Shown here: one piece after another, positions 34,946 to 41,725 of the stretch
How the letters are laid out: the number at the start of each line of letters is the position of its first letter
Position numbering within the stretch: position 1 is the stretch's first letter
Virus record (IMG/VR): IMGVR_UViG_3300023179_000158
Span: 1 to 50,525 of that record
Length of the DNA: 50,525 nt
Direction: 5' to 3' (one strand)
Origin: a virus
Notes under the pieces: model-generated
Seen by the model: only the letters and a program-made list of their open reading frames with translations
The model's database searches: none
What the model was told of the DNA's origin: nothing
Translations under genes and position numbers: made by a program

Positions 34946-35866
34946 ATGAGTATCGGACTACTAACCACCAGAAAAGTAAAATACCTAAACAATAGAGACC
35001 TATTAGCAGAAATACACAAGAGTAAATGCAGTTTTTCAAGTTTTACCAAACCAGAATATCAACAATATGACATTATATTGCCAAGTCTAAATAAAGTTAA
35101 CATTAGGACCATAGCTGAAGCCAAACGAAATCGTGCCAAAAGAATGGGCATTGAAGCCTTTACCCGTGCTCGATTAGCGGGTGATAAAAAGATCAAACTA
35201 CCAGAATGCACTCCGGACTATAAAACTGTTGCCAAAACAGAGATAGTTATACGAATTATGACTTTTGATCATATTCCATTAACACCTGGACGTAAAAAAA
35301 CTACTAAAACTAGAGCCGATGGTCATGAAAAAGTTAACTTCCCTCCGTTTCAACATTGGAAATTTAACAACCAAGACGAACTAGTCTGTGTGGGCAAGAG
35401 TCATTGGAAGGGAGGAATGAAGACTGGTAAGTTTAGTAAAGAACACGGACGCATCACAGAGGGGCTGGGTAGAATGTTTATCAAGTTATCAGAACGTTAT
35501 GCTCAACGTAGCAACTGGCGAGGATATACCTATATCGATGAAATGAAAGGTCAGGCTATTCTACAACTTAGTCAAATCGGTCTACAGTTTGATGAATCAA
35601 AATCAGAAAATCCATTTGCCTATTACACAGCCGCAGTTACAAATTCATTTACTCGTATTCTAAACATCGAAAAGAAGAATCAAAACATCCGCGATGACAT
35701 GCTAGAAGAAAACGGACTTACACCAAGTTCGACTAGACAAAATGCTCACGAATATGCCGAGGAAACTGCAAGACAGGCAGAACTATATAAAAATCTGCGT
35801 ATGCCCAAGAGTGAAGATGCAGATATAGAAGAGGAAGAAGATACCGAAAGCGAAGAAAAGGCTTGA
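34946..35866 (+). CDS. 55: Late-transcription sigma factor gp55, with long N-terminal extension
   Basis: 306 aa against 185 in T4. Residues about 170-260 (MFIKLSERYAQRSNWRGYTY, MKGQAILQLSQIGLQFDESK, PFAYYTAAVTNSFTRIL) form the sigma region 2-like core that recognises the TATAAATA element and binds the polymerase coiled coil. The first 165 residues are basic and not part of T4 gp55; they include LLAEIHKSKCSF and HWKGGMKTGKFSKEHGRI. The C-terminus is very acidic (DADIEEEEDTESEE), a place where T4 gp55 has its clamp-binding motif, though I cannot identify that motif here. The gene has a consensus sigma70 promoter and sits next to gp47-gp46, as in T4. Its TGA stop lies in the gp47 -35 box. Confidence 0.88.
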   Translation: MSIGLLTTRKVKYLNNRDLLAEIHKSKCSFSSFTKPEYQQYDIILPSLNKVNIRTIAEAKRNRAKRMGIEAFTRARLAGDKKIKLPECTPDYKTVAKTEIVIRIMTFDHIPLTPGRKKTTKTRADGHEKVNFPPFQHWKFNNQDELVCVGKSHWKGGMKTGKFSKEHGRITEGLGRMFIKLSERYAQRSNWRGYTYIDEMKGQAILQLSQIGLQFDESKSENPFAYYTAAVTNSFTRILNIEKKNQNIRDDMLEENGLTPSSTRQNAHEYAEETARQAELYKNLRMPKSEDADIEEEEDTESEEKA

Positions 35867-35913: not shown

Positions 35914-36927
35914 ATGAACCTTTTTAAAAAGGTAGCGTGTTTTACTGATCTTCACGTAGGGCTGAAGGGAAACTCAACCATACATCTTAAAGATTGCGAA
36001 GAGTTTGTAGATTGGTATATTGCAACTGCTCAAGCCAATGGATGTGAAACTGGTATATTTCTAGGTGATTGGAGTCACAATCGTAACAGCCTAAACCTAA
36101 TCACTCTGGATACCAGTATGAGGTGTTTGGAAAAATTAGGCGCTGCATTTGAGCAATTCTTTTGGTTTCCGGGCAATCATGATTTATACTATAAAGATAA
36201 ACGCGACATCCATAGCAGTGTCTTCGGACGCCATATACCTGGTGTGACTGTCATAGACTCTGTGACCACTCAAGGCGGTGTCACTCTTGTACCGTGGTTG
36301 GTAGGTGACGAATGGCGCACTATTGAAAAGATCAAAAGCAAATATATATTTGGGCATTTTGAACTACCTCTGTTCTATATGAATGCCATGGTTCAAATGC
36401 CCGATCACGGAGAACTACAATCGCATCATTTTGTTCATCCAGAATATGTGTTTAGTGGACACTTTCATAAACGCCAGCAACGTGACAAGGTCATCTACAT
36501 AGGAAATGCGTTTCCCCATAACTTTTCAGATACCTGGGACGATGAACGAGGTATGATGATTTTAGAATGGGGCGGTAAACCGGAATTTATTGATTGGCCA
36601 GATTGTCCTAAATTTAGAACAGTTAAATTATCAGACCTAATTGATCGTAAAGATGAGATTATGAAGTCGAAAATGTATCTAAGAGTAAACTTAGATATTG
36701 ATATCAGTTTCGAAGAAGCAAATTTTATTAAAGAAACTTTTATTAAGGAACATGACATTAGAGAAATTAGTCTAATTCAAGACAAAGCGAACTTAGAAGG
36801 CAGTTACGAAGATAATCCAGATACCACATTTGAAAGTGTAGACCAAATTGTAAGCGAACAAATACTTAACATAGACAGCAAAGAAATAGACAAAAAATTA
36901 CTTCTGGACATTTATAACAATCTATAA
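35914..36927 (+). CDS. 47: Recombination nuclease subunit gp47 (Mre11/SbcD-like)
   Basis: 337 aa, like T4 gp47 (339 aa). It is a calcineurin-type metallophosphoesterase: FTDLHVG (D12, H14), GDWSHN (D52, H55), FPGNHDLYY, GHFELP and GHFHKRQQ supply the two-metal site. With gp46 it resects DNA ends for recombination-dependent replication and helps degrade host DNA. It has its own sigma70-type promoter, and the last A of its TAA is the first base of the gp46 ATG, so the two subunits are translationally coupled. Confidence 0.95.
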   Translation: MNLFKKVACFTDLHVGLKGNSTIHLKDCEEFVDWYIATAQANGCETGIFLGDWSHNRNSLNLITLDTSMRCLEKLGAAFEQFFWFPGNHDLYYKDKRDIHSSVFGRHIPGVTVIDSVTTQGGVTLVPWLVGDEWRTIEKIKSKYIFGHFELPLFYMNAMVQMPDHGELQSHHFVHPEYVFSGHFHKRQQRDKVIYIGNAFPHNFSDTWDDERGMMILEWGGKPEFIDWPDCPKFRTVKLSDLIDRKDEIMKSKMYLRVNLDIDISFEEANFIKETFIKEHDIREISLIQDKANLEGSYEDNPDTTFESVDQIVSEQILNIDSKEIDKKLLLDIYNNL

Positions 36928-38705
36928 TGTTTAACATTAAAAATTTAACAGTAAAAAACTTCATGAGTGTGGGTAATCAAACCCAGGCTGTAGACTTTGA
37001 TCGTGAACATCTTACTCTAGTGCTAGGTTCAAACCTAGACCTAGGAGGAGATGATACTGGATCGAGAAACGGTACAGGTAAAACCACAATCATCAACGCT
37101 CTCAGTTATGCATTATACGGGCAGGCATTGACTAACATCAAAAAAGAAAATCTTATCAATAAGATCAATGGTAAGAACATGCTGGTCACTGTAGAGTTTG
37201 AAAAACACAACATCAGGTATCGTATAGAGCGAGGGCGCAAACCCAACATCTTAAGATTTTTTGTCAACGATACAGAAGTTAAAGACGAACATGAAGATGA
37301 AAGTCAAGGTGATAGCAGAGAAACGCAAAAGGCCATAGATGACTTATTGGAAATGAGTCATACTATGTTCAAGCACCTATTGGCTCTAAATACCTATACT
37401 GAACCTTTTCTTAGCATGAGGGCTGCTGATCAGCGCGAAGTTATAGAACAACTGCTAGGTATTACTATTTTAAGCGAAAAGGCCGATCATCTAAAAACAG
37501 CCATTAAAGAAAACAAAGAAGCCATACAACAAGAAAATGCAAAAATAGAAGCAATCAAGACTGCAAATGAAAATGTACAAAAAAGTATCGATAGTTTACA
37601 ATTAAAAAGTTCTGCATGGGATAACAAGCATCAACAAGAATTAGAAAATCTAGGTCGCGCCATTGTCAATCTAGAGTCGGTGGACATTGAAGCAGAATTA
37701 CAGGCACATAGAGATCTAGCAATATGGTTAGAGAACGATCGTAAACTGACTCAACTTAGAAAACAAATGACAACTCTAGAAACTGCGGTCATGCAGGCTG
37801 CTAAAAGTGTAGACAAATATTCTAAAGACTATGACATGCTGATGGGCAAAACATGTCCATCATGTAAACAAGAGTTACAAGATCATAATCACGAGGATAT
37901 GATTAAAGAAGTTTCAAAGAATCTAGCAGATGCCAGCGAATATTCAGACAAGGTAATACGCGATTACGGCCTAGTAGTTAATGAAGTTGATGCTATCGTT
38001 AAACACCCCAAGAGACCGGATACCTTTTACGATACAGAAGCAGAAGCACTAGGACACAAAAATAACCTAAGTAATTTAGAAAAAAGCCTACTGGAAAAGG
38101 CCAGCGAACAAAATCCATATCAGGAACAAATCGAAGAATTAAAACACACCGCCATACAAACTATAGACTGGACTACTATAAACGAATTAACTCGTGTTAG
38201 AGATCATCAAGATTTTCTGTTAAAATTATTAACAAACAAAGACAGTTTTATTAGAAAGAAAATTATAGATCAAAACTTATCATACCTAAACAAACGTCTA
38301 AGTTACTATATTGATAAACTAGGATTACCACATCTAGTTAAATTTCAAAACGATCTAAGCGTAGAAATAACCCAACTAGGACAGGATTTAGATTTTGACA
38401 ATCTAAGTAGAGGCGAGCGTAATCGACTAATTTTATCAATGAGTTTTGCTTTTAGAGATGTCTGGGAAGGACTATACCAATCAACAAACTTATTGTTTAT
38501 TGATGAACTAGTAGACTCAGGTATGGACTCTGCGGGTGTCGAAGCAGCATTGGCAGTATTAAAGAAAATGGCCAGGGAACGCAATAAGAATATATACTTA
38601 ATCAGCCATAAAGATGAACTGATAGGTCGTGTTAACAATGTTCTAAGAGTTATAAAAGAAAACGGCTTTACATCATATTCCAACGATATAGAATATGTCA
38701 ACTGA
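36927..38705 (+). CDS. 46: Recombination nuclease subunit gp46 (Rad50/SbcC-like ATPase)
   Basis: 592 aa, close to T4 gp46 (560 aa). Walker A RNGTGKTT is at residues 47-54, a zinc hook CPSCKQEL has Cys310 and Cys313, the ABC signature LSRGERNRL starts at about 493, and Walker B LLFIDE has D526/E527 followed by VDSGMD (D-loop). Two coiled-coil arms flank the hook (about 180-300 and 320-440). It works with gp47 in DNA end resection and recombination-dependent replication. Its end overlaps the next ATG by 11 bp. Confidence 0.96.
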   Translation: MFNIKNLTVKNFMSVGNQTQAVDFDREHLTLVLGSNLDLGGDDTGSRNGTGKTTIINALSYALYGQALTNIKKENLINKINGKNMLVTVEFEKHNIRYRIERGRKPNILRFFVNDTEVKDEHEDESQGDSRETQKAIDDLLEMSHTMFKHLLALNTYTEPFLSMRAADQREVIEQLLGITILSEKADHLKTAIKENKEAIQQENAKIEAIKTANENVQKSIDSLQLKSSAWDNKHQQELENLGRAIVNLESVDIEAELQAHRDLAIWLENDRKLTQLRKQMTTLETAVMQAAKSVDKYSKDYDMLMGKTCPSCKQELQDHNHEDMIKEVSKNLADASEYSDKVIRDYGLVVNEVDAIVKHPKRPDTFYDTEAEALGHKNNLSNLEKSLLEKASEQNPYQEQIEELKHTAIQTIDWTTINELTRVRDHQDFLLKLLTNKDSFIRKKIIDQNLSYLNKRLSYYIDKLGLPHLVKFQNDLSVEITQLGQDLDFDNLSRGERNRLILSMSFAFRDVWEGLYQSTNLLFIDELVDSGMDSAGVEAALAVLKKMARERNKNIYLISHKDELIGRVNNVLRVIKENGFTSYSNDIEYVN

Positions 38706-39009
38706 AAAATTTGATCAATATAAAGAAGTATACTCAAAATATATTCTTCTTGCTATAGAATTGCATAACTACCATCAACAGTTTATTAGTCGTCGAGGCT
38801 TTCGAACTGCTAAAGTACTTAGAAGTAAGATCAAAGAAATAATGGCAGTTGAAAAAGTACTGTGGAAAATTAGTGTAGCGGCCTATGAAGAATGCCTAAT
38901 AAATTTTAAAGAAGAGCAACGCCAAAAAAAGGCTGATTTAAAGGCATGGAAAAGGGCTCATCCCGGAAAGCCCGGTAGGAAAAAAAGGATATTAAATGGA
39001 AACAACTAA
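38695..39009 (+). CDS. Small basic protein of unknown function, 104 aa
   Basis: No function recognised. Mostly helical (YSKYILLAIELHNYHQQFI, TAKVLRSKIKEIMAVEKVLW), strongly basic at the C-terminus (KADLKAWKRAHPGKPGRKKR), which suggests nucleic-acid binding. It starts inside the end of gp46 and overlaps the Hc1-like gene by 14 bp, so it is part of the gp55-gp47-gp46 transcription unit. From memory, a similar protein follows gp46 in other marine T4-like phages. A link with recombination is only suggested by position. Confidence 0.65.
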   Translation: MSTEKFDQYKEVYSKYILLAIELHNYHQQFISRRGFRTAKVLRSKIKEIMAVEKVLWKISVAAYEECLINFKEEQRQKKADLKAWKRAHPGKPGRKKRILNGNN

Positions 39010-39193
39010 ACAACAACTACAAAAAATTTATGAAGAATTTCTAAAAGAAGATGATAAATTCGAAGCCGGTAATGCTGCGGCAGGTACAAGATCACGTAAG
39101 GCTCTTGCCGAACTTGCTAAACTTGTCAAGGCACGCCGCAATGAAATTACCGCAGAAAAGGCTGCTCGTAAAGAGGCTAAAACTGCAAAATAA
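38996..39193 (+). CDS. Histone H1-like (Hc1-type) DNA-binding protein, 65 aa
   Basis: The central sequence FEAGNAAAGTRSRKALAELA (residues about 22-41), followed by KLVKARRNEI, matches my memory of the Hc1 family of histone H1-like proteins, which have GN-x-AAGTR-x-RKAL-x-ELKKL. The rest is Lys/Ala/Glu-rich helix ending in KAARKEAKTAK. Such proteins bind and condense DNA non-specifically. Only the conserved N-terminal unit is present; the long Lys/Ala/Pro tail of chlamydial Hc1 is absent. Possible roles are protecting or compacting phage or host DNA. Located just after the recombination nuclease genes, with a 14-bp overlap to the upstream gene. Confidence 0.6.
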   Translation: METTKQQLQKIYEEFLKEDDKFEAGNAAAGTRSRKALAELAKLVKARRNEITAEKAARKEAKTAK

Positions 39194-39196
39194 TCA

Positions 39197-39631
39197 ATGT
39201 CTTGGACATACCAAGGTACGATTATCAATGAATTACCGGAGGACTGTGTAGGTTTTGTTTACCTCATTACTAACACAGTCAATAATAAAAAATATATAGG
39301 CAAAAAATTATCTAAATTTTCAAAAGTAACTTACAAAACATTAAAATTAAAAAACGGCACAAAGAAAAAGAAACGCATAAAATCTAAAATAGACTCAGAC
39401 TGGCAAACCTATTATGGCTCAAATGAACAACTCAACAAAGACGTAGCACAATTAGGCACAGATAAATTTGTAAGAGAAATATTATACTTCTGTAATTCAA
39501 AGGCAGAATGTTCCTATATTGAGGCACGAGAACAATTTACACGTAAAGTACTAGAATCAGACGAATACTATAACGGACATATACAAGTCCGTGTCCATGG
39601 CACACATATCAAAGGCAAATTAAACGGTTAA
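39197..39631 (+). CDS. GIY-YIG endonuclease (Seg-like, putative homing endonuclease)
   Basis: 144 aa. The nuclease domain starts GFVYLITNTVNNKKYIGKK (about residues 15-33): here the GIY is GFVY and the YIG is intact. A Lys-rich insert (about 36-58) follows, then WQTYYGSNEQLNKDV, FVREILYFC and a Glu-containing CSYIEAREQ that should hold the catalytic metal-binding Glu. Free-standing GIY-YIG genes of T4-like phages (Seg type) are often homing endonucleases, but this short compact kind is widespread in marine phages and may have another DNA-processing role. Located 3 bp after the Hc1-like gene and directly before the hairpin-rich region. Confidence 0.8.
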   Translation: MSWTYQGTIINELPEDCVGFVYLITNTVNNKKYIGKKLSKFSKVTYKTLKLKNGTKKKKRIKSKIDSDWQTYYGSNEQLNKDVAQLGTDKFVREILYFCNSKAECSYIEAREQFTRKVLESDEYYNGHIQVRVHGTHIKGKLNG

Positions 39632-39819
39632 TGGCTAGCGCAGGCTAACATCATGCGCCCTAGACCTGGATCCAGTATCGCAGGGACGGAATGCTCACCG
39701 CCGTAGTGAGTACTCAACCACTACCCCAAAAGGATGTAGATCACAAAACGCCGTGATTTGGTTGTTTGAATAGGTTAACACAAAGGCAAAAAGAAGGGTA
39801 ACTCCCTAACGGACATATA
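39571..39819 (+). repeat. 13-bp direct repeat TAACGGACATATA, in the endonuclease gene and the following intergenic region
   Basis: Exact copies at 39571-39583 (inside the end of the GIY-YIG gene) and 39807-39819. Translated in the matching frame the second copy continues NGHIDVCV against NGHIQVRV in the endonuclease, so similarity extends a few codons beyond the exact match. This may be a remnant of a duplicated endonuclease 3' end, or chance. Confidence 0.5.
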
Positions 39820-40056
39820 GACGTCTGCGTGTTTATATGTGCCTGCCGTCGGATAAAGACTGAGCTCGTGGTACCGGCCGACCGCCACTGTAACGCTCTA
39901 ACGTAGAATGACTTGCTAACTCGGATGATGACAAGTATATCTTTGCCCGCCCTGGGCAAAGTATGACCATTAAATCTGGATGATACTAAACATCTTCGAT
40001 GTAAAAATTGCGATGAGCGTGAGCGAAGAGCAAACGAACGCAGTTCGTTTCATTGT
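39632..40056. other. Hairpin-rich intergenic region without a gene; possible structured RNA or decayed element
   Basis: No convincing coding sequence on either strand. By eye it is richer in G and C than its neighbours. Inverted repeats in order: GCGCA/TGCGC (39638-39658), CTGGATCCAG (39666-39675), CTCAC/GTGAG (39694-39710), ATCAC/GTGAT (39740-39757), ACATATA/TATATGT with inner ACG/CGT (39813-39840), GTCGG/CCGAC (39848-39882), CTTTGCCC/GGGCAAAG with a 5-nt loop (39941-39961), ACATC/GATGT (39990-40002 approximately), and AAACGAAC/GTTCGTTT with a 3-nt loop (40032-40050). None is followed by a T run, so they are not typical terminators. It lacks a tRNA T-arm and recognisable group I intron core. 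It would be transcribed as the 3' part of the gp55-to-endonuclease unit. Confidence 0.45.
40032..40050. repeat. Perfect inverted repeat, 8-bp stem
   Basis: AAACGAAC GCA GTTCGTTT just upstream of the TATAAATA late promoter. It is the strongest hairpin of the intergenic region and lacks a following T run. Position suggests a boundary or regulatory element ahead of the late gene at 40092. Confidence 0.6.
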
Positions 40057-40064
40057 TATAAATA
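40057..40064 (+). promoter_or_regulatory. Late promoter for the gene at 40092, TATAAATA
   Basis: Exact T4 late promoter element, 27 nt before the ATG. Transcription would begin near 40070 and give a leader of about 20 nt with AGGA before the ATG. A 12-bp perfect palindrome CTACTCGAGTAG (40072-40083) lies at the start of this leader. Confidence 0.7.
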
Positions 40065-40091
40065 ACATCATCTACTCGAGTAGGAATTAAT

Positions 40092-40649
40092 ATGAAAATC
40101 GCTCAACTACTACAATCGGTTAATGAAGCAGGTGCAAGATCAGCTTCCCAACAATCTTCAATGCAGGCTGCTGCTTCAGGAACTACACCTCCTCCTAATC
40201 TAACAGTTCAACAAGGGGGCAGAGGACAACCTCGAGCTACTACAACAGCACCTACAACAAACGCAGCACCTACAACAAACGCAGCACCTACAACAAACGC
40301 AGCACCTACAACAAATGCCGGGCCGGGATTAACACAGCCGTTACCTCCTGCAGATCCAAATGCACCTAGTCTAGCAACTAGGATTGGACGTGGCATAGGA
40401 GCTGCTGGTAAGGCTATAGGAGCAGTAGCAGGTGTTCCTCAAGGTTTAGGGCGTGCTATAAAGAAAGGGTACCAAGCAGGAGTAGATACTATAGGTGGAC
40501 CAGGCGCTTCCCCCGCAGGTGGAGCTCAAGCCGCATCTGCTCAGAGCGTTCAGGCTACAAATAATGAGTTAGATCAGTTGAAAGCCACTCTACAGTCACT
40601 AGACCAAAGGATGCGTAGAGCAGGGTTTGAAGAATCAAAAAAACGGTAA
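40092..40649 (+). CDS. Repeat-containing small protein, possibly an internal head protein, 185 aa
   Basis: Not recognised by family. The N-terminus MKIAQLLQSVNEAGARSAS is a short amphipathic helix resembling the targeting peptides of T4 internal head proteins (e.g. MKTYQEFIAEA), which gp21 protease cuts after (L/I)-x-E; here the match would be VNE, a weaker site. Residues about 20-90 are low complexity, with four APTTNA repeats (53-76). About 95-155 are Gly/Ala-rich with small basic patches (GRGIGAAGKAIGAVAG, LGRAIKKGYQAG). The C-terminus (about 157-185) is a short coiled-coil helix. It has a perfect late promoter, so it is a late, probably virion-associated protein. Its end overlaps the converging gene by 15 bp. 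Confidence 0.6.
   Translation: MKIAQLLQSVNEAGARSASQQSSMQAAASGTTPPPNLTVQQGGRGQPRATTTAPTTNAAPTTNAAPTTNAAPTTNAGPGLTQPLPPADPNAPSLATRIGRGIGAAGKAIGAVAGVPQGLGRAIKKGYQAGVDTIGGPGASPAGGAQAASAQSVQATNNELDQLKATLQSLDQRMRRAGFEESKKR
40248..40319 (+). repeat. Tandem repeat, 4 x 18 bp
   Basis: Four units of GCACCTACAACAAACGCA encode APTTNA. Three are identical and the last differs at the end (AATGCC). The unit length is a multiple of three, so copy number can vary without shifting the frame. Confidence 0.92.
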
Positions 40650-40849: not shown

Positions 40850-41725
40850 TCAAAAGCCTTGCCCGAAAAAATCAGAATTATTAAAAGTAATAGGAATTTT
40901 ATAAGTTGGTGGTGCGCCTAGTTCTTGTTGTTCAGGTGTACTTTGGAATTCTAGAGGCTTCATATCGTTGTGTTCTTTCAGCAACTTGATGTGTGATTGA
41001 ACTTTTTCAAATATTTCTTTGTCTGTATTGGATATAAATTCTTGAATGAAATGCGGGTTAGTAACTTCACCTTGAGGTGTAACGATTTTGTATATAGACT
41101 CACCTAATAGATTAACCGTAATATCAGTTAGTTTGGCAAAACTTTCATTAAAAATTTCCAACTTTTTATCATCAGGTATAGTATCATCGTTGGCCATATT
41201 AAGGATTCGGTTTGTTTCAAACGTTTTTACACTGGTTTTATTCAAGTGACGATAGGTTAATGGTTTAACATATATAATTAACTCATCATTTACGGCTACC
41301 TGTTCTGTCCATGAATTATAACTTTGTTGATCTAGTAAATGTCTAAGGTCTATGTCATAATCTACTTCTTCGTCTGTATTGGGAACCTTAAATTTTAAGG
41401 GCATACGTTCCCCATAGGTAGCAATACGGATTGCAATTAAAATAGTATCTAAGTCTAGATTGGGACAGTTCCAGGCATTTTTAATATTTGGCAAACAACT
41501 TTGTATAACATCCACTATCGCTTGACCATTCATTAGAGCGTCGGGAGTCTTGAACAATAACTCGTCTTTGGCAGTCATGGAATACACGGGATATTCACCA
41601 TTTTCAGTAATCACAATAGATCCCGGCTCCCAAAACTTACCTTGACTGGGCAGTTGAATATAAATTTTAGGTTGACGCATCCACTGACTTAATGGATTGG
41701 TCTTTTGGGCTGCTTGATATTGCAT
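40850..41725 (-). CDS. 26: gp26-like baseplate hub/tail assembly protein
   Basis: 291 aa. The sequence IYIQLPSQGKFWEPGSI, GEYPVYSMTAKDELLFKTPD, ALMNGQAIVDVIQSCLPNIK and DTILIAIRIATYGERMPLKF is the pattern of the T4-type baseplate hub assembly family (gp26; T4 gp26 is 208 aa). T4 gp26 acts with gp51 in hub and tape-measure assembly, a chaperone-type role. The gene lies divergently from the tape measure gene. It has a perfect TATAAATA late promoter and GGAG ahead of the ATG. Its 3' end contains the -1 slippery heptamer; frameshifting would yield 363 aa. Confidence 0.78.
   Translation of the reverse strand: MQYQAAQKTNPLSQWMRQPKIYIQLPSQGKFWEPGSIVITENGEYPVYSMTAKDELLFKTPDALMNGQAIVDVIQSCLPNIKNAWNCPNLDLDTILIAIRIATYGERMPLKFKVPNTDEEVDYDIDLRHLLDQQSYNSWTEQVAVNDELIIYVKPLTYRHLNKTSVKTFETNRILNMANDDTIPDDKKLEIFNESFAKLTDITVNLLGESIYKIVTPQGEVTNPHFIQEFISNTDKEIFEKVQSHIKLLKEHNDMKPLEFQSTPEQQELGAPPTYKIPITFNNSDFFGQGF
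40865..40871 (-). promoter_or_regulatory. Canonical -1 frameshift heptamer T TTT TTC
   Basis: In the gp26-like frame the codons are GAT TTT TTC, i.e. X XXY YYZ in the correct phase. After a -1 slip the next codons are CGG GCA AGG CTT TTG ACA TTG ACA ATG, which run straight into the 40841 frame. The zero frame stops five codons later (TGA at 40850-40852). A small CATT/AATG inverted repeat lies about 17 nt downstream; no strong stimulatory structure is evident by eye. Confidence 0.65.

Follow-up and report, generated by a model that had tools for sequence, protein, structure and literature searches.

A conserved structured RNA of about 420 nt at a fixed locus of T4-like phages extends the Rfam family Polynucleobacter-1

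Genes and features of the locus

The window, that is, the whole 50,525-nt stretch of DNA analysed here (IMG/VR record IMGVR_UViG_3300023179_000158), is from a T4-like phage, probably a jumbo phage. A same-strand operon including a gene for a gp55-like late sigma factor (34946..35866, + strand; phrog_12791, E 1.8e-85) lies upstream, and the conserved neighbourhood starts with a gene for a gp46-like recombination endonuclease subunit (36927..38705, +; phrog_77, E 1.4e-100). A SegE-like GIY-YIG endonuclease gene (39197..39631, +; Pfam PF19835, E 3.2e-32) follows, and a T4-type baseplate gene on the opposite strand (40850..41725, −; PF12322, E 1.2e-13) closes the neighbourhood. The recombination operon also contains a 65-aa histone H1-like (Hc1) gene (38996-39193; PF07432, E 2.8e-11). 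The GIY-YIG gene was assigned to the SegE family by PF19835 together with intact GIY, YIG, Glu and Asn motifs, and these catalytic-type residues were conserved in 88 homologues. PHROG 447 and many phage records label this family 'NAD synthetase', despite the PF19835 match.

Between the stop codon of the GIY-YIG gene (39629-39631) and the next gene, which begins at 40092, there is a gap of 460 nt. A first-pass annotation had described this gap (39632-40091) as gene-free and richer in GC than its surroundings, and both descriptions held. The ORF check found no credible gene, the sole ORF being a 72-aa antisense frame with a TTG start. The GC content was 0.48, whereas the window as a whole has 0.379; a GC content this high was reached by only 2.5% of windows of equal size. 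Among 105 homologues of class A, the class of the RNA described below, an antisense ATG ORF of at least 60 aa was found in just 10 and such a sense ORF in 4; this survey rules out protein coding on either strand.

Downstream of the RNA, the T4-type late promoter octamer TATAAATA (40057..40064, +) precedes a late gene encoding 185 amino acids (40092..40649, +). The product has no family match, and its N-terminus resembles the T4 capsid-targeting propeptide (MKIAQLLQSVNEAG), which it may be. Such capsid-targeting-like N-termini were found in 46 of the 102 ORFs behind the RNA versus 13 of 2244 other ORFs.

A conserved structured RNA on the plus strand

The first-pass annotation had proposed Rfam covariance models as a check, and cmscan identified the first 135 nt of the element (39633..39767, +), its 5' third, as Polynucleobacter-1 (RF01718), with a score of 110.6 bits (E 3.1e-23; gathering score 37) over the full model (1-141). 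The 5' third is therefore a member of RF01718 by the score threshold over the full covariance model. No other family, including tRNA, tmRNA, introns and HEARO, matched in the Rfam scan of the window, and the group I and II intron and HEARO/omega-RNA models gave no match up to E 10.

Viral loci (80 in total) were collected via the GIY-YIG protein, and most had the RNA directly behind that gene; RF01718 matched 32 of the 40 GIY-YIG loci scanned. The 141-position model does not mark the end of the RNA, as conservation and covariation continued for about 290 nt further. Specifically, the alignment revealed the conserved blocks GGTAYMGGNYRACCGCC and CC-N5-GGGC-N-AAGTGTGAC, a paired ACTC-R-GAT/AATCT-R-GAT motif, a GAGCG..AGCGA hairpin and a terminal hairpin. 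Because these blocks lie far outside the Rfam model, the RNA extends to approximately 40055. In the alignment of 105 non-redundant homologues, conservation and compensatory changes covered the full length of the element, which we therefore place at 39633..40055 (+, about 420 nt), its 3' end being approximate and set at the end of the terminal hairpin (40050) plus a few nucleotides. Conservation beyond the model extends the RF01718 family and does not exclude the element from it. The last part of the GIY-YIG coding sequence (39571-39594) and a hairpin of the RNA (39807-39830) share a 24-nt direct repeat (83%), perhaps by chance.

Folding of the single sequence against shuffled versions, another check proposed in the first pass, did not beat chance (z −0.93, with 18 of 100 shuffled sequences folding equally well; z −1.25 in a second run). 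Coding controls averaged z −1.1, and the single-sequence test was set aside as uninformative (z −0.9 to −1.3, coding controls alike). The search for compensatory changes among homologues was positive. For class A (105 non-redundant sequences), RNAalifold gave an alignment energy of −146.3, compared with −53.6 ± 4.2 for column-shuffled alignments (z −21.9), and 62 of 103 pairs showed compensatory Watson-Crick exchanges. The ratio of G-U to A-C combinations was 3.8 on the + strand versus 1.3 for the minus-strand fold, an asymmetry indicating that the + strand RNA is the functional strand. The stretch 39633-40055 (+) is thus a non-coding, structured RNA, conserved at the RNA level along about 420 nt.

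The 3' domain outside the Rfam model (39831..39986, +; alignment A1) contains a pseudoknotted core (UCGG/CCGA) and the motif pair ACUCGGAU..AUCUGGAU. With helices named beforehand on alignment A1, the covariation of this domain was 0.304, compared with 0.116 when shuffled (0/500) and at most 0.065 when slid. The named helices included the pseudoknot, in which UUGU pairs with an ACAA loop and which is swapped for other complementary pairs among homologues. Helix 6 of the same test is the hairpin CTTTGCCC-GCCCT-GGGCAAAG (39941..39961, +; 8-bp stem), which was kept across 53 homologues with 89.6% of cells paired, a figure partly lowered by misalignment. The terminal hairpin AAACGAAC-GCA-GTTCGTTT (40032..40050, +), also with an 8-bp stem and conserved across loci, had a perfect stem of at least 6 bp in 91 of 93 homologues, with 38 different stem sequences. 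Both hairpins had been picked out in the first pass and are indeed conserved parts of the RNA structure. The view that none of the hairpins is a simple terminator also stood: no T run follows the last hairpin, which is therefore no canonical intrinsic terminator.

These results bear on the proposal that the gap is a decayed mobile element, a pseudogene or a DNA recombination hot spot without RNA function. The gap does adjoin a gene of a homing-endonuclease family, and RNA classes are exchanged at this locus (see below). However, the strong covariation with strand-specific G-U pairing, the absence of any ORF remnant and the similar length kept across hundreds of loci make this proposal scarcely credible, and covariation refutes decay as the first-pass annotation had raised it.

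Exchangeable RNA classes and chromosomal copies

Some GIY-YIG loci without RF01718 bear another structured sequence at the position of the RNA. Motif scans of viral contigs identified two further classes at the same place as class A, namely class B (z −13.0; 39 of 106 pairs compensatory) and class C (z −10.5; 38 of 103). Neither RF01718 nor any other Rfam model matched the class B and C loci L018, L046, L059, L075, L037 and L342. The covariance model R1, built on the class-A 3' domain, matched class C at E 1e-7 to 1e-10, as well as chromosomal copies; classes A and C therefore share a 3' domain, and their 5' halves differ. The link of class B to class A is a profile-HMM match of the class-B 3' end only (E 8e-10). 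In classes B and C, other perfect hairpins stand in the place of the 39941-39961 hairpin.

The order gp46, SegE-like GIY-YIG gene, RNA and baseplate gene is conserved and common to the three classes. Of 190 loci with sufficient sequence, 174 had the gp46 gene upstream; on the downstream side, 143 of 150 had the T4-type baseplate gene. In scans using RNA motifs only, the GIY-YIG gene was upstream in 226 of 228 testable phage loci (class A, 93/94; class B, 48/48; class C, 85/86); of the two exceptions, the contig of L113 ends inside an inserted SGNH-like gene, and L341 has about 0.6 kb of upstream sequence. Where extra sequence separated the GIY-YIG gene from the RNA, it held an unrelated gene in 43 loci and an SGNH-like gene in 5, and most of the inserted genes end at the RNA 5' end.

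No short locus among 259 assignable ones carried two classes, and each long virus record with an A/C-type RNA had exactly one such copy. The 300-kb phage G617 carries two RNAs, one of class C at the usual locus (255.9 kb, L487) and one of class B, full in length, at 76 kb (76.3 kb, L488). The latter lies between an SGNH-hydrolase-like gene, which precedes it, and an endolysin-like gene, which follows it (names by eye). Changes of RNA class numbered 12 on the GIY-YIG tree, 13 on the gp46 tree and 15 on the baseplate protein tree, compared with about 40 when shuffled, the counts being approximate because the trees are fast, single-gene ones. These similar counts indicate that the RNA classes are exchanged at the locus and are bound no tighter to the GIY-YIG gene than to its neighbours, and together with the lack of short loci carrying two classes they mark the classes as exchangeable modules. 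Classes that replace one another are as expected of interchangeable parts with one function. A different RNA, the cis-regulatory freshwater-2 (RF02980), was found in the same kind of phage (L143, 603-674, −).

Copies were also found on bacterial chromosomes. A genome scan matched two Methylococcales MAGs and one mis-binned phage contig. RF01718 was present in 6 of 237 genomes of the methanotroph family, and in a wider sample of 369 genomes drawn from the class it was found only in one already-known genome. The methanotroph chromosomal copies have no GIY-YIG gene. In five of them (L436 and L446 to L449), a small divergent ORF (111-138 aa) neighbours the RNA at a distance of about 130-200 nt; its product has an N-terminus of the capsid-targeting-like kind, and its middle is rich in Arg and Pro. 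Among the chromosomal copies, L437 alone is near an integrase gene and tRNA-Leu, and others are near restriction- or TIR-like genes (names by eye). In L449 and L447, restriction-, TIR- and MORN-like neighbours were noted (names by eye).

These five loci are possibly satellites or defence islands. Relatives of the small ORF without an RNA sit behind helicase- and primase-like genes, and in two methanotroph chromosomes (L453 and L467) the small ORF forms a compact island together with one helicase-like and one primase-like gene, the RNA being absent. The primase-like genes of the islands had no Pfam primase match, no homologues of the small ORF were found in viral contigs, and T4-type late promoters before the chromosomal copies showed no clear excess over shuffles. 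To regard the chromosomal copies as phage satellites is attractive but unproven. Stand-alone copies, divergent from the adjoining ORF, speak for an independent RNA, and they offer an independent clue to its function.

Three of the alternatives for the RNA can be weighed on these distributions. The first is that the virion gene downstream has the RNA in its 5' UTR as a cis-regulatory leader. Weinberg et al. (2010, PMC2864571) provisionally marked Polynucleobacter-1 as cis-regulatory (Table 1: 'y' for RNA, 'y' for cis-regulatory, '?' for riboswitch), and a + strand gene follows the RNA in 54 class-A loci. However, that paper assumes cis-regulation for any motif upstream of genes, and the gene behind the RNA is convergent in 33 of 98 readable class-A loci, 14 of 45 class-B loci and 30 of 52 class-C loci. 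Moreover, where a + strand gene follows, the late promoter NATAAATA lies between the RNA and the gene in 46 of 54 (class A) and 17 of 19 (class B) loci, compared with 2 of 33 and 2 of 14 where the gene is convergent. The downstream genes appear to resemble one another in neither length nor sequence, except for their first residues, and the chromosomal RNAs point away from the adjoining gene. A leader function was rejected on the position of the late promoter and the convergent genes, and we regard it as very unlikely.

The second alternative is that the RNA is a guide-like partner or RNP cofactor of the GIY-YIG endonuclease, in a layout like that of IscB and its omega-RNA. The gene's place directly upstream with three RNA classes and its intact catalytic-type residues would fit, and the layout foreseen in the first pass was indeed found. 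An obligate pair is nevertheless ruled out by the chromosomal copies, which have no GIY-YIG gene, by the second RNA of G617, which sits behind another gene, and by the trees, as the RNA class fits the GIY-YIG tree no better than the gp46 tree. In addition, other genes or sequence intervene between the GIY-YIG gene and the RNA in about 50 loci, no RNA was found with same-family GIY-YIG genes in other contexts, and the Methylophilales phage Melnitz has the GIY-YIG gene, with no RNA found. The association looks like fixed synteny rather than partnership, which we consider improbable.

A cis-acting RNA of DNA replication or packaging, such as an R-loop or RNA II-like primer or a packaging RNA, is the third. 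This role would account for copies on phage-exploiting chromosomal islands, and it agrees with the adjoining recombination genes, the single A/C-type copy in those long virus records that have one, the chromosomal copies beside an ORF with a capsid-targeting-like N-terminus and the one near an integrase and tRNA-Leu. However, in two jumbo genomes the cumulative GC skew did not turn at the RNA, lending no support to the replication origin suggested in the first pass; one phage has two RNAs; and no known origin or packaging RNA family matched in the Rfam scan. Such a role is accordingly not one that we expect.

Proposed origin and action of the RNA, and comparison with known systems

A large structured + strand RNA that is cut from the transcript of the recombination operon and then acts in trans is, in our judgement, the probable explanation, held with some reserve. 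The RNA would be the last element of a gp55-gp47-gp46-GIY-YIG operon and would be transcribed with it, since all of these and the RNA lie on one strand, the RNA starts at the stop codon, and no late-promoter octamer is found upstream. In a scan of 92 loci, NATAAATA was absent from the 800 nt before and the first 400 nt of the class-A RNA and was found right behind it in 45; its absence before and within these RNAs suggests that they are made with the early/middle operon and not from a late promoter. Of the first-pass proposal that a structured RNA is transcribed with the recombination operon, structure and strand are established, and co-transcription is suggested by the layout. Conserved synteny alone could explain the link between RNA and operon.

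Processing would release the RNA, with its 3' end at the terminal hairpin, and the folded RNA may act in trans during infection, free or bound to protein, in the style of GOLLD and ROOL. The layout might also suggest that the RNA, as part of the 3' UTR, stabilises the gp46/GIY mRNA or controls it, considering that it begins right at the stop codon of whichever gene is upstream and has no evident promoter of its own. However, the copies with the divergent small ORF directly follow no same-strand gene, and the RNA, at 420 nt and with a pseudoknot, is bigger than one would expect of a stability element. A 3'-UTR function is thus unlikely, and we prefer a released, trans-acting RNA.

A blastn search with the RNAs of classes A, B and C as queries found nothing in 50,697 phage records; thus no cultured phage with any of these classes is known here. 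The best matches of the gp46 of the window are in the Pseudomonas jumbo phages Paride and PA5oct and their relatives (about 49% identity, 287 kb). Paride (L464, 8190-9500; OR805295, ~234.3-235.6 kb) and PA5oct (L463) have, at the syntenic position (gp55-gp47-gp46 ... baseplate hub), about 1.2-1.3 kb with tiny dubious ORFs only, and the single-sequence fold of the Paride region was far better than shuffled (z −5.05). In Sinorhizobium phage Phosso, a gene-free, GC-rich stretch (L465, 8480-9400; fold z −5.14) between the Holliday-junction resolvase and RNase HI genes is a candidate for a large RNA. The Paride and Phosso regions matched neither Rfam nor R1 or R2. We predict that a large RNA occurs at the Paride/PA5oct and Phosso regions. 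Paride and PA5oct on laboratory P. aeruginosa are a possible cultured test system, with which the question becomes testable.

At least three RNA classes are exchangeable at one fixed phage locus, and chromosomal copies occur without the endonuclease. A broader and decidedly speculative idea is offered here with considerable doubt. Jumbo T4-like phages might have a dedicated large-RNA locus, filled by exchangeable, partly unrelated classes (A, B, C and the 1-kb Paride/PA5oct form), and chromosomal islands exploiting or resisting these phages might carry a copy together with a small basic capsid-targeting protein. The RNA would then work in or on the virion, for example by being carried into capsids, or would be a hijacked helper function. 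The RNA occurs regularly in a widespread group of large phages, beside recombination and late-transcription genes, and for the study of large phage RNAs it provides a defined locus and usable alignments.

Among known systems, the T4 SegE-type GIY-YIG homing endonucleases include the upstream gene (PF19835, E 3.2e-32), but SegE-family relatives elsewhere have no RNA. The IscB-like pair of nuclease and guide RNA needs an obligate nuclease, whereas the RNA described here occurs without GIY-YIG in chromosomes and in the second copy of G617. GOLLD and ROOL (PMC12286853) are over 600-800 nt, compared with 420-520 nt for the RNAs here, and their covariance models gave no match, RF01718 being the only Rfam match. 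GOLLD and ROOL are often near tRNA genes, whereas the window has no tRNA and the RNA lies beside gp46. The homo-oligomeric RNA cage is a feature of GOLLD and ROOL. In phage ICP1, an approximately 800-nt orf-less transcript in the lysis cluster is likewise a large non-coding RNA to which no role is assigned (PMC7567579). ICP1 and its satellites are both rich in non-coding RNA; however, ICP1 belongs to another phage group, and its transcript is at another locus.

Polynucleobacter-1 is typed as an sRNA in Rfam and was described from Burkholderiales and from fresh water and estuary samples (PMC2864571). The RNA of the window resembles it in its full-model match over the first 135 nt, its occurrence in freshwater metagenomes and its lack of an assigned function. 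Unlike Polynucleobacter-1 as described, the conserved RNA here has about three times the length, belongs mainly to phages and has sister classes B and C without an Rfam match, and the cis-regulatory call is not supported. The whole RNA is an extended form of RF01718 with unlisted sister classes, of which only the 5' third was previously known, so that what Rfam lists as a short orphan sRNA is the 5' part of a structured RNA of 420 nt.
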